Shown here: piece by piece, positions 12,649 to 17,442 of the stretch
Layout: each line of letters opens with the position of its first letter
Position numbering within the stretch: position 1 is the first letter of the stretch
DNA from: Candidatus Culexarchaeum nevadense
GTDB taxonomy: Archaea > Thermoproteota > Methanomethylicia > Culexarchaeales > Culexarchaeaceae
Direction of reading: 5' to 3'
DNA length: 48,788 nucleotides
Assembly (NCBI GenBank): GCA_025060975.1
Contig: JANZKA010000005.1
Coordinates: 1 to 48,788, forward strand
The notes under the pieces: model-generated
Databases searched by the model: none
Told to the model about the DNA's origin: nothing
The model's input: only the letters and a program-made list of their open reading frames with translations
Position numbers and translations under genes: made by a program

Positions 12649-13167
12649 CTAAATTATCATCACATGATTTGACTCACAGTAAATAGTTATATCAAATAGT
12701 GAAGCTAAAAAACCTAGGAATTTTGGAGAGAATACTAAGGCATTATCAATAGATAGTGTTCCCCCATTGAAGATGAGTATCAATTTTAATGATGAAAACC
12801 TACATACCCTCAACACCATCTTAACCCTCTCCAAAAACATTTTTATGGAAACCTTGTATAATGGCATAAAACTATTACCTCTAGCTTGGAGGAAGATAAT
12901 TGATGGCAAGTAAATTATTGAATCAATACCTTTACCAATAAACTTAAAGATATCATATGGATTTAGAGGTGTACAGCACTCAACTATATACTGAGAATCC
13001 CTAAAATGCGCATTTAAAGGTTGAGGAAACTCAGATAATATCAAAACTCTATCCATAACACCAACTATGAAAAGGAAAAATCGAAGTGCATCAGAACCAA
13101 AAACGAATATCGATTGAATATCACTTGAAATCAACATATTCAAAGCATCTTCAAATGCCATCCTCAT
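12649..13167 (-). CDS. Putative degenerate RecA/Rad51-fold protein (no Walker A/B)
   Basis: 172 aa; order of predicted strands/helices tracks the RadA core (see findings); overlaps upstream SWIM gene. Confidence 0.5.
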   Translation of the reverse strand: MRMAFEDALNMLISSDIQSIFVFGSDALRFFLFIVGVMDRVLILSEFPQPLNAHFRDSQYIVECCTPLNPYDIFKFIGKGIDSIIYLPSIIFLQARGNSFMPLYKVSIKMFLERVKMVLRVCRFSSLKLILIFNGGTLSIDNALVFSPKFLGFLASLFDITIYCESNHVMII

Positions 13168-13522
13168 TTAACTCGCCCCGAAGCATCCTCCATAAAATCA
13201 CGCTACCAACATGTGTACATACATTCCTCATCCTAAAATGACCGTAAAGCTTATGTTTAGAGTAACATGTACAGAAATATCTCCCCGAACTCTTCACAAA
13301 ATAGACTACGTAAAATGGTTCACGATCCCCGAAATATGCTCTACCCCTAACAATCCAAACCCTCGACTTCTCAACTTCACTTACATCCATAAGTCTAGCC
13401 CTACAGCGATTAAACCATGATGAACTTTTATTATGAAATTTTAACATGAAACACTTAAATAAATCAGAATCACAAGACATCCACAACCCCATCCTCACAT
13501 ATTGCGAAGAACGCATGTTCAC
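13151..13522 (-). CDS. SWIM zinc-finger protein
   Basis: RYFCTCYSKHKLYGHFRMRNVCTHVGSVI = CxCx15CxH SWIM signature; real start probably internal (13480 or 13447). Confidence 0.8.
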   Translation of the reverse strand: MNMRSSQYVRMGLWMSCDSDLFKCFMLKFHNKSSSWFNRCRARLMDVSEVEKSRVWIVRGRAYFGDREPFYVVYFVKSSGRYFCTCYSKHKLYGHFRMRNVCTHVGSVILWRMLRGELNEDGI

Positions 13523-14462
13523 CTTTAGGTAGATAGGGACTATCCTCTACAACCATTTTCCTAACGAGATGCTCCAACCCCCTTTTCACATTACTTAACG
13601 ATGAATGTTGCAAGAATAATCTGTGAGTTGTACCATGAGCAACAACATTCCCACCAGCAGCGGAAACAGACCCACCAGCAGTTGGTTTGGATATTATCTG
13701 ATTAGTTACAATGACATAAACGTTGTAGAGCATTGCTATACGCATGAGGAAGTTCAACATATAGTTGAGGGTCTGCTGCCTAGCTACAAGCATTTCCCTA
13801 CCCCTATACTCAGCACGGACATGGGAAACAAGACCATCAAGTACTATCAACTTAACATTCTTTTCCTCAATCAAGTTTGGTGCAATGATTCTAATACAAT
13901 CTATTTGCTCATCAACATTAACAGGCTGAGATACAAAGATACCTCTAAGTGGGTCACTCAAATTAAACCTTTCAGCTATTCTACATATCCTAGTCTCAGA
14001 AAATGTTCCTTCACAATCAATGTATAATACCTTGCCATCAACACCACCATTATTAATAGTTAGCTGAGCTGTAACAGAAAGTTGGAAACATAATTGCGAC
14101 TTTCCAGAACCATATTCCCCAACAAACTCATATATACATCTAGGCTCCAAACCACCTCTTAAAAGACCATCTATAGAAGAAACCTTAGTGGATATTCTTG
14201 GAAGCCCCCTCCTATAACTCGAAAATTCAGTAGCACTTATAATCTTACTTTGATGGAAAGCCTCCCTCACACTATATAAAGCTTTACTCAATCTCGAGTA
14301 ATCAGTTACATCCATCATAGAAGCCAATTCATCCAAACTGTAAAGTGAAAGTTGTTTTGGACTTAATATTCCAATCTTCCTAAGTTTCTCAGCCGTGCTT
14401 GGACCTATGCCAGGGATATCCTCTAAACAAGAGTATTTACCGCTCAAAACCTCCACCCCCAA
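13470..14462 (-). CDS. radA: DNA repair/recombination ATPase RadA
   Basis: HhH N-terminus (LEDIPGIGPSTAEKLRKIGI), Walker A GEYGSGKS, Walker B VKLIVLDGL, VTNQI. Confidence 0.95.
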   Translation of the reverse strand: MGVEVLSGKYSCLEDIPGIGPSTAEKLRKIGILSPKQLSLYSLDELASMMDVTDYSRLSKALYSVREAFHQSKIISATEFSSYRRGLPRISTKVSSIDGLLRGGLEPRCIYEFVGEYGSGKSQLCFQLSVTAQLTINNGGVDGKVLYIDCEGTFSETRICRIAERFNLSDPLRGIFVSQPVNVDEQIDCIRIIAPNLIEEKNVKLIVLDGLVSHVRAEYRGREMLVARQQTLNYMLNFLMRIAMLYNVYVIVTNQIISKPTAGGSVSAAGGNVVAHGTTHRLFLQHSSLSNVKRGLEHLVRKMVVEDSPYLPKGEHAFFAICEDGVVDVL

Positions 14463-14814
14463 TCAAGTTTCTCAACCAATTTAAATGTAGAATAACTCTA
14501 TCCAGCTCATTAACCAATGATGGTGCATCATTAACCAATAGAGAACCAATACTCTCAAGAGCTTTAATGAAAGCTTTAAACTCATCAATATTAATAATAG
14601 ATTCAAAAACTATCTTCCCACCATACATTCCAAATTTTAACATCCTCTTCGGATAAATCTTCAAAGTTAAACCAACCTTATCCTCCACCAATCTAAATGA
14701 TAAGAAAGCCACATACTTCTCATGAACTTTTATTGGAATCATGAAGCCCCTGGCATCATTATCCCAAACCACGAATCTAGACAATTCACCTATCACCCGA
14801 CTCGGAATATTCAT
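14437..14814 (-). CDS. Hypothetical protein in radA operon
   Basis: 125 aa, overlaps the HerA-like ORF by 29 bp upstream and radA by 26 bp downstream. Confidence 0.6.
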   Translation of the reverse strand: MNIPSRVIGELSRFVVWDNDARGFMIPIKVHEKYVAFLSFRLVEDKVGLTLKIYPKRMLKFGMYGGKIVFESIINIDEFKAFIKALESIGSLLVNDAPSLVNELDRVILHLNWLRNLIGGGGFER

Positions 14815-16126
14815 TCATAACTGCAATACCCATCGGAGAAATTCTAAGATAATATTTCCCATCACGATGAACCCCTTCAATTATCAAACCATTAACTGAA
14901 AGTGTTGTCAAAATCTTCTTAGCCTCTGTAGCATTCAAACCATAAACACCAGTAATATAACCTATAACTAAATCCCTCTCAACAGTTCCCTGAGATAGAA
15001 ATGAGAGAACACTATACGCCAAATCAGCTTTAGAGCCAAACAACTTAACTAAAGTATTCTGTTGAGAAGGCTTTAGAGGTTTAAGTTCATCAGCAACTTC
15101 GAATACACCTTTAAACTCAAATCTACCACTATAATTTGCAAGCTTAACATCACCATCTTTGAAAACCATGAAGTAAACGTCATCATCAATATTAATAGAT
15201 TTGAAAGCACTTAAATCATAAAAGCCAGAAGTGAAACTGCGGAGGAGATTATCCAGCACATCTTTAGACCTTGGGATAGGAGCAAAAGCAATATCAATGA
15301 TAAACTTGATTTTGGAATTTAACCATGATGGACTATCACAGGATAGTAAGATATACTTGGATTCATTCTCATTAATTAGATAATAGAAGATCATTGAACG
15401 TTCAAAGGAAATAGCATACTCCTCACGTAAAGCTCTAGACATTTCCGGAGCTATAATATCAGCATTCTCAATCAATATGAAATTAAATTCCTTTCGAAAC
15501 TTCATTAACATCAATAATGATGAGAGAACCCTAAACTCCACAGGTAAATGGCTAACATCAACGATAATTAAACTTGAATTCAAATTGGAAAAACCATGCA
15601 TTGAACTAAATGATGAACCAATACGTCCAACAGACATTAAATCAAGAAGTCTTAACAATTTATGAACATAAGGATAAGATCTTGAAATTAAACTTTGAGA
15701 TTCAACTTCGGAAATAACATCGGAAATGGAGAACTCTAAACCACCCTTTAAAATTAAGCTAATGAGAGACTCCTGTAAAACCCTAGCTGAATCTTCACCT
15801 AAATGAAAACTTAACTTGAAAATGTCAGAGACAAACTTAGCTTCAGTATATGGATCATCTAAATCAAATTTGAAAGGATTTATGGAAGCATTAAATCCAA
15901 GCTTCAACAACTTAGCATCCTCAAATACGTTACATAGATACTTGTATAAACCACTTGAATCTACAATCAAAATGCGCTCCCAATCAGCACAATCAATTAT
16001 GGAGTAATTCACCTTAACCCTACTCCGCATAGGACCAAAGGAGCCGAGAACAAGTTTTCCCTCGCTGCAAAGTAAATCAACTAAATTTACACACCCAACA
16101 TTTAAAGGAAAATTGAACACTATCAA
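14786..16126 (-). CDS. Degenerate HerA/VirB4-like (FtsK-HerA superfamily) pseudo-ATPase with C-terminal winged helix
   Basis: PLNVGCVNLVDLLCSEGKLVLGSFGPMRSRV at the GATGSGKS position; RILIVDSSGLYKYL; NASINPFKFDLDDPYTEAKFVSDIFKLSF; FNFILIENADIIAP at the Walker B position; wHTH-like C-terminus. Confidence 0.55.
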   Translation of the reverse strand: MIVFNFPLNVGCVNLVDLLCSEGKLVLGSFGPMRSRVKVNYSIIDCADWERILIVDSSGLYKYLCNVFEDAKLLKLGFNASINPFKFDLDDPYTEAKFVSDIFKLSFHLGEDSARVLQESLISLILKGGLEFSISDVISEVESQSLISRSYPYVHKLLRLLDLMSVGRIGSSFSSMHGFSNLNSSLIIVDVSHLPVEFRVLSSLLMLMKFRKEFNFILIENADIIAPEMSRALREEYAISFERSMIFYYLINENESKYILLSCDSPSWLNSKIKFIIDIAFAPIPRSKDVLDNLLRSFTSGFYDLSAFKSINIDDDVYFMVFKDGDVKLANYSGRFEFKGVFEVADELKPLKPSQQNTLVKLFGSKADLAYSVLSFLSQGTVERDLVIGYITGVYGLNATEAKKILTTLSVNGLIIEGVHRDGKYYLRISPMGIAVMNEYSESGDR

Positions 16127-16713
16127 ATCACCCCCTGAACTACGGGGAAAACTTGAGAAATAACCTCATCACCACTCAAAACAACAACACTATCAGCTGG
16201 AATAGAAAGTGAAAGTGAATTGAGTATTTCAATAAGCTTAGACATAGCGGAACCTAAAGCGTGAAACCCAACTTTAACATATAACAGCAGAATATAGGAT
16301 TCACTAGAACCTTCACCACCCCTAAAAATCAAATGATAATTAAATGGAACACCCAAAAGGATATTCCTAAGTAGAGTAAGATCTCTAACATTGCGGAATA
16401 GTAAAGCCCCAAAAATATAGGTGAACCCCATTGAACTGGAAACAAGTAACAGTTTATCAGAAACCTTAAATTTAAATTTCAAATCAACTTCCCTAAAGTC
16501 ATTTAAATCTAAATTCGTGAATAAGAACTCCCTAAAATACTTTGATGTTTTAACATCATTAAATCCTGGAAAGCTGAGCTTACCTTTATAGGCAAGCTTA
16601 TAGGCGATTAATAAAGCGATCACAGGGATGGATAACATTAAAGATAACATTGGATTTACCAAAAATATCAGAAACCATGCTAATAGCATTATAGGAATCC
16701 ACATATCAACCAT
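16123..16713 (-). CDS. Membrane protein, two N-terminal TM helices plus soluble domain; partner of the HerA-like protein
   Basis: MWIPIMLLAWFLIFLVNPMLSLMLSIPVIALLIAYKLAY; 4-bp overlap with downstream ORF. Confidence 0.65.
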   Translation of the reverse strand: MVDMWIPIMLLAWFLIFLVNPMLSLMLSIPVIALLIAYKLAYKGKLSFPGFNDVKTSKYFREFLFTNLDLNDFREVDLKFKFKVSDKLLLVSSSMGFTYIFGALLFRNVRDLTLLRNILLGVPFNYHLIFRGGEGSSESYILLLYVKVGFHALGSAMSKLIEILNSLSLSIPADSVVVLSGDEVISQVFPVVQGVI

Positions 16714-16815: not shown

Positions 16816-17442
16816 TTGGATTGTCAATTAAATATTGAAGACATGAAAATCCTCAGTGAAGAAACTAGGGTAAAGATAATTAAACTACTATACGATAAGG
16901 GAGAACTTGGATTAAACGAAATAGCAGAACAAATAAAGAAGGCAAAATCAACAACATCAGAACATTTGAAAATACTACTAGAAAGCGAGTTCATAGAGAG
17001 AATACAAGTTGAGAGGGGATACAGATATAAATTGGCTGAAAAAGGGGTAAAAGCTGTAAAAATGCTGTATGAAAGTGAAAATATAAAACTTCGGAAAAGA
17101 TCAACTGGAGCATATATTCAGAGAATATTAAGGCAAAGGGGTGTATGGATTCAATTCGCAATACCAGTAATAACTGGAGCATCAATGACCATACTTAGCG
17201 GAATATCAAACATAATCATAGCACTATCAATACTAAATGGAATCCTCCTCGGAATAATGAAATCAAAATTCATAGACGTAGTAATTGGAGGAATCATATT
17301 CTCATTTATAACATCAATAGTATCAGCAGGGAAAATAGGGATACTTGCAATACCAATAACACTGACACTATCAATAGTAATATATATTTGTGTAGGAGGA
17401 TTAACATGGATAATAACTAGATTGGTGATTAAACATGGTTAA
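16816..17442 (+). CDS. ArsR-like winged-helix regulator with C-terminal TM region
   Basis: LSEETRVKIIKLLYDKGELGLNEIAEQIKKAKSTTSEHLKILLESEFIERIQVERGYRYKLAEKG followed by hydrophobic helices; TTG start. Confidence 0.8.
   Translation: MDCQLNIEDMKILSEETRVKIIKLLYDKGELGLNEIAEQIKKAKSTTSEHLKILLESEFIERIQVERGYRYKLAEKGVKAVKMLYESENIKLRKRSTGAYIQRILRQRGVWIQFAIPVITGASMTILSGISNIIIALSILNGILLGIMKSKFIDVVIGGIIFSFITSIVSAGKIGILAIPITLTLSIVIYICVGGLTWIITRLVIKHG

Follow-up and report, generated by a model that had tools for sequence, protein, structure and literature searches.

A HerA/VirB4-type protein without catalytic motifs is encoded with a second RadA in an operon of two archaeal classes

In a 48,788-nt stretch of Candidatus Culexarchaeum nevadense DNA (GenBank assembly GCA_025060975.1, contig JANZKA010000005.1; hereafter “the window”), an operon was found to associate a RadA paralog of its own, RadA2, with two consecutive genes, A and B, whose products very probably amount to a dead membrane protein of the CedD/VirB4 kind. 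The make-up of this operon suggests a membrane-bound recombination complex without earlier description, with a possible tie to the exchange of DNA between cells. No earlier account of the operon, nor of any CedD-like protein in a dead form, was found in the open-licence literature.

Organization of the gene block and ATPase fold of gene B

The six minus-strand genes of the window, running A, B, C, RadA2, SWIM and a last gene (Table 1), all overlap, by 4 nt for genes A and B, then by 29, 26 and 53 nt, and by 17 nt for the SWIM gene and the 172-aa gene. A first-pass annotation, made from the sequence alone, had singled out gene B; this open reading frame and the motif stretches quoted from it were confirmed on the minus strand with exact coordinates, the protein containing GSFGPMRSRV, LIVDSSGLYKYL, NASINPFKF and FILIENADII. 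The gene C family was aligned across the operons, and gene C gave no notable Pfam or PDB match and no recognisable fold. In the SWIM protein, C84, C86, C102 and H104 were invariant over 12 operons; its gene adjoins RadA2 in several families and is absent from the operons of families f6, f47 and f51. Homologues of the 172-aa protein were found only within the window's own family (f1). The ArsR-type gene is kept beside the operon in most genomes and is a possible regulator.

Table 1. Features of the operon and its surroundings in the window.
Feature	Position (nt)	Strand	Description
Gene A	16123..16713	-	196 aa; two N-terminal TM helices and an alpha/beta domain
Gene B	14786..16126	-	TTG start, 446 aa; putatively dead HerA/VirB4/CedD-type ATPase domain and winged helix
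Gene B domains			ATPase domain, ~residues 20-335; C-terminal winged helix, ~residues 358-442
Walker A remnant in gene B	16016..16045	-	residues 28-37, GSFGPMRSRV (family alignments)
Gene C	14437..14814	-	small protein, 125 aa; separates B from RadA in almost every operon
RadA2 (RadA paralog)	13470..14462	-	330 aa; HhH domain, Walker A GEYGSGKS and Walker B intact
SWIM-type zinc-binding protein	13151..13522	-	123 aa; CxC...CxH
Last gene of the overlapping set	12649..13167	-	172 aa; without known family or domain
ArsR-type winged-helix gene	16816..17442	+	divergent from the operon; hydrophobic C-terminal half

Searched singly, the gene B protein of the window returned no match in Pfam, NCBIfam or the PDB; hence, its kinship with ATPases is visible only through its family. 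A profile of 11 members matched VirB4 in the PDB (4ag5, E 0.009), and the profile of 21 members matched HerA (8xau, 3.6e-7), VirB4 (4ag5, 6.8e-6), the HerA of T. kodakarensis (3.3e-5) and a further HerA structure (9x1l). Aligned by hhalign with intact ATPases of the same phylum, the gene B family reached a probability of 99.7 (E 8e-26, 311 columns), compared with 0.7% for a RadA control. The AlphaFold model of gene B, built from three sequences, was weak (pLDDT 54); the 17 best PDB matches of this low-confidence model were all HerA or its relative TdpA, followed by VirB4, TrwB and, for the C-terminus, winged-helix regulators. Structure and profile matches alike showed this C-terminus to resemble winged helices of the LmrR/MarR/PadR type. 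Gene B is an ATPase domain of the HerA/VirB4 superfamily followed by a C-terminal winged helix, and the homology goes beyond chance. This is in line with the first-pass annotation, which had proposed both the superfamily, now found in profile comparisons with HerA (8xau) and VirB4 (4ag5), and the winged helix, now matched to LmrR/MarR-type structures. Its label of HerA-like protein stands for the superfamily but not for the nearest named relative, which is CedD, an ATPase of DNA import in Sulfolobales, and identity with canonical HerA was rejected, the HerA of this genome being encoded on contig C66, where NurA- and Mre11-like genes adjoin it.

The closeness of the C-terminus to PadR, MarR and LmrR regulators, together with the adjacent divergent ArsR-type gene, would suit a sensor or regulator, with A and B at the membrane, the winged helix on a promoter and RadA2 filaments acting as the DNA-damage signal. 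Such a role is quite improbable, since winged helices are commonly carried by DNA-handling enzymes too and the ATPase-fold half of gene B is retained under selection.

Loss of the catalytic motifs

The Walker A signature GxxGxGK[S/T] is absent from gene B, whose similarity to the HerA/FtsK (VirB4) fold is present. The loss of catalytic motifs, first pointed out for this single protein, extends to all orthologues. Indeed, the P-loop lysine is found in none of the 32 aligned homologues of this kind, hereafter called dead (arginine in 23/32), versus all 22 intact relatives. Glutamate occupies the position of the second Walker B acid in only 3/32 dead homologues. The dead family has another residue instead of the sensor glutamine and no RK finger motif; it keeps the first Walker B acid (D/E) in 28/32 and, for the most part, the NP motif. 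A GxxxxGK[ST] string in one dead homologue (L082) lies at the extreme C-terminus and was attributed to chance. From these replacements, gene B would have lost hydrolysis, and the arginine in place of the P-loop lysine could permit nucleotide binding without hydrolysis; the protein can fairly be read as a non-hydrolysing scaffold.

Between congeners, the dN/dS of gene B was 0.11-0.13 (~0.12), close to that of RadA2 (0.07-0.10), and gene B is therefore under purifying selection. No in-frame stop was found in gene B of relatives. In the tree, which has long branches, a branch with 99/99 support separates all dead sequences from the rest, as would fit one loss event. The missing catalytic motifs could have marked gene B as a degenerating pseudogene. 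Purifying selection, the open frames of the relatives and the shared 99/99 branch argue against this explanation, which is left with hardly any probability, and local decay was rejected on the dN/dS of gene B and the universal loss of the motifs. Orthologues from close genera are also without the Walker A motif, so that the intact close orthologue by which the first-pass annotation would have recognised a local decay event was not found. Gene B clearly exemplifies a DNA translocase that became a part without motor motifs and was retained as such across two archaeal classes. As for other origins, a scan of viral contigs gave no relative, and a phage or mobile origin was set aside; so was anti-phage defence, PADLOC giving no match save a weak one for RadA.

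Relatives and genomic company of the operon

Beyond the first-pass annotation, the upstream gene A, with its two TM helices, was recognised as the probable N-terminal half of the same type of protein, in a block conserved in two classes. In hhalign, the gene A family aligned to the N-terminal domains that intact CedD-like ATPases carry in G370, G283, G219 and G234 with a probability of 95.6% (E 1e-8), against 0.2% for a reversed control; the 95.6% applied to proteins of f47/f51, versus only 6% for the N-terminal domains of the 604-aa ATPases. The AF2 model of gene A (pLDDT 71) consists of two helices and a ferredoxin-like domain, and a fold search with it against the PDB gave nothing significant. 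In G234, an intact CedD-like protein is itself split (L208:6235-8209) into a 228-aa gene for the TM and N-terminal domains and a 388-aa ATPase gene, the same division as in the dead operon. From the likeness of gene A to the N-terminal domains of intact ATPases and from the split in G234, A and B probably correspond to one TM-NTD-ATPase protein. Judging from this homology, gene B is probably held at the membrane through gene A. Among NCBIfam families, CedD was the most frequent match of gene B members (6/21, best E 2.8e-18), the window gene B itself being unmatched. Intact relatives were named CedD-like by NCBIfam with up to 249 bits against a cut-off of 600 bits, and no CedD match exceeded 600 bits in any of the 47 genomes tested.

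Gene B had been placed in a RadA operon by the first-pass annotation. It does sit with a RadA, but this RadA is a second paralog, distinct from the housekeeping RadA; the canonical copy is encoded on contig C10 and is 39% identical to the RadA of the window. RadA2 matched PF08423 (1e-54) and PRK04301 (269.9 bits, above the cut-off of 259), whereas for TIGR02236 (cut-off 361 bits) it scored 246, below the cut-off, and the C10 RadA 445, above it. Nearly every operon genome tested has a canonical-type RadA in addition to the operon copy. Both Walker motifs, A and B, are intact in 33/33 aligned operon RadAs, and the polymerisation motif (canonical GFKTA) has another residue at its aromatic position in the window copy (KIISA) and in most other operon RadAs. 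In genomes of the class without the operon, the RadA loci that were read had no pseudo-ATPase alongside. A RadA tree, made unreliable by long branches, did not resolve the operon RadAs as a single clade. In several of these archaea, e.g., G382, G234, G024 and G219, the number of RadA-like genes is three to five.

The block A-B-C-RadA was found in this order in 36 genomes, among which gene B contains runs of N in three and one operon is cut by a contig end. These genomes comprise 28 of the 40 Methanomethylicia examined, the class in which Candidatus Methanomethylicia SKYB69 and Candidatus Culexmicrobium are close relatives of the window organism, and eight of a second class (G342, G382, G234, G283, G370, G219, G209 and G319). 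Wherever the contig continues, RadA follows gene B across the small gene C, and no operon with an intact ATPase was present among the genomes examined. In two genomes beyond these 36 (f52), gene B is further changed and extra genes precede RadA; the B homologue is more decayed in both loci (L211:5053-9238 and L212), and L211 has genes of 322 and 166 aa between B and RadA.

Intact CedD-like ATPases, called by a match stretch over the ATPase core under a rule fixed after the scores were seen, with one partial match at a contig edge counted in, were found in 26/28 operon-bearing Methanomethylicia genomes versus 3/12 without the operon (Fisher p 4e-5); low completeness accounts for some of the gaps. 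Among genomes of at least 85% completeness, the values were 21/22 and 0/5. With few independent losses behind it, this co-occurrence is supporting evidence only. It would also be expected if gene B joined the intact CedD-like ATPase in a mixed ring as its non-catalytic member and regulated pumping, RadA2 being merely co-expressed, and joint action has been proposed for CedB and CedD (PMC11868833). However, none of the loci read has the intact partner gene beside B, while all those whose contig continues have RadA2 there, and gene B has no RK finger motif; such a ring is improbable.

In the window organism, the CedD-like gene is weak (~98 bits against the 600-bit cut-off) and lies away from any DNA-import cluster, its neighbour being a helicase-like gene. 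This gene (contig C6, L171:1002-4308) encodes a 500-aa ATPase with an intact P-loop and one TM, and overlaps the 617-aa helicase-like gene. Elsewhere, an intact CedD-like ATPase adjoins an archaeal type IV pilus cluster, in Methanomethylicia f6/f9 (L063, L064 and L075) as in f47/f51 (L208, L214, L215 and L216). These clusters contain a T2SSE ATPase where scanned, TadC-like membrane proteins and small pilin-like proteins. In these seven loci, the CedD-like ATPase stands beside an Ups-like pilus, whereas Ups and Ced have been described as separate systems in Sulfolobales. The pilus-linked type is absent from many operon genomes.

Proposed function and comparison with known systems

In the mechanism that we propose, gene A would supply two membrane helices and an N-terminal domain, and gene B a non-hydrolysing ATPase-fold domain and a winged helix, the two forming a membrane-anchored scaffold that would bind the dedicated RadA2 through the small protein C; where present, the SWIM protein would act as a RadA2 co-factor. 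At the membrane, the scaffold would load or hold a RadA2 filament on single-stranded DNA, which would most likely come from a CedD-type import or exchange machine encoded elsewhere in the same genomes. Formation of the complex, tethering of RadA2 to the membrane and DNA binding by the winged helix are all predicted from sequence. That A and B, very probably a dead membrane protein of the CedD/VirB4 type, serve as membrane-anchored non-hydrolysing scaffold for RadA2 has about an even chance of being correct. A direct tie between the operon and DNA import is put forward more tentatively, and with the same reserve a pseudo-translocase of this kind may tether RadA to the membrane and pass incoming single-stranded DNA straight to homologous recombination.

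The sharing of an operon by RadA2 and the SWIM protein, the position of the window organism's CedD-like gene outside any import cluster and the lack of the pilus-linked CedD-like ATPase in many operon genomes would also suit a membrane-anchored recombination mediator of Shu-like make-up (RadA2 and SWIM), working in chromosomal repair or replication with no tie to import, the dead ATPase serving solely as membrane anchor. On the other hand, the homology of A and B to CedD-type import ATPases and their co-occurrence with them favour a tie to DNA transfer, and a repair mediator of this sort is considered unlikely.

Imported DNA is thought to supply homologous recombination in Saccharolobus (PMC11868833). 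As far as the consulted parts of the Ced and Ted papers go, recombination follows import and no link between the pore and RadA is described (PMC11868833, PMC9905601). The operon, by joining a dead import-type ATPase to a RadA paralog of its own, offers a concrete and testable candidate for a link between import and recombinase in archaea.

With respect to known systems, the HerA of HerA-NurA end resection has in common with gene B the ATPase fold (profile matches 8xau and 9x1l), but gene B is without the catalytic motifs and without an operon containing NurA, Mre11 or Rad50, its neighbours being A, C, RadA2 and the SWIM gene. VirB4 and TedB, from type IV secretion and Ted, share the order of motifs, the 4ag5 match and the link to the membrane, whereas in gene B the catalytic motifs are gone and no VirB6- or VirB2-like neighbours were recognised. 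The Shu complex consists of RAD51 paralogs and a SWIM protein, and a recombinase paralog and a SWIM protein are likewise encoded together here; the likeness is by composition only, and RadA2 and SWIM are here accompanied by a dead translocase and a membrane protein. HerA-like and Rad50 genes are included in Ted loci (PMC9905601). Finally, in Saccharolobus, CedB and CedD consist of TM, VirB4-like N-terminal and HerA-type ATPase domains, and DNA import needs both (PMC11868833). CedD (NF053655; SiRe_1715 of Saccharolobus islandicus) and CedB appear to share with the operon a TM region, an N-terminal domain and a HerA/VirB4-type ATPase domain, here spread over A and B. Gene B homologues score far under the CedD cut-off and, in contrast to CedD and CedB, the protein is split in two, apparently non-catalytic, extended by a winged helix and encoded beside RadA2 instead of import genes.
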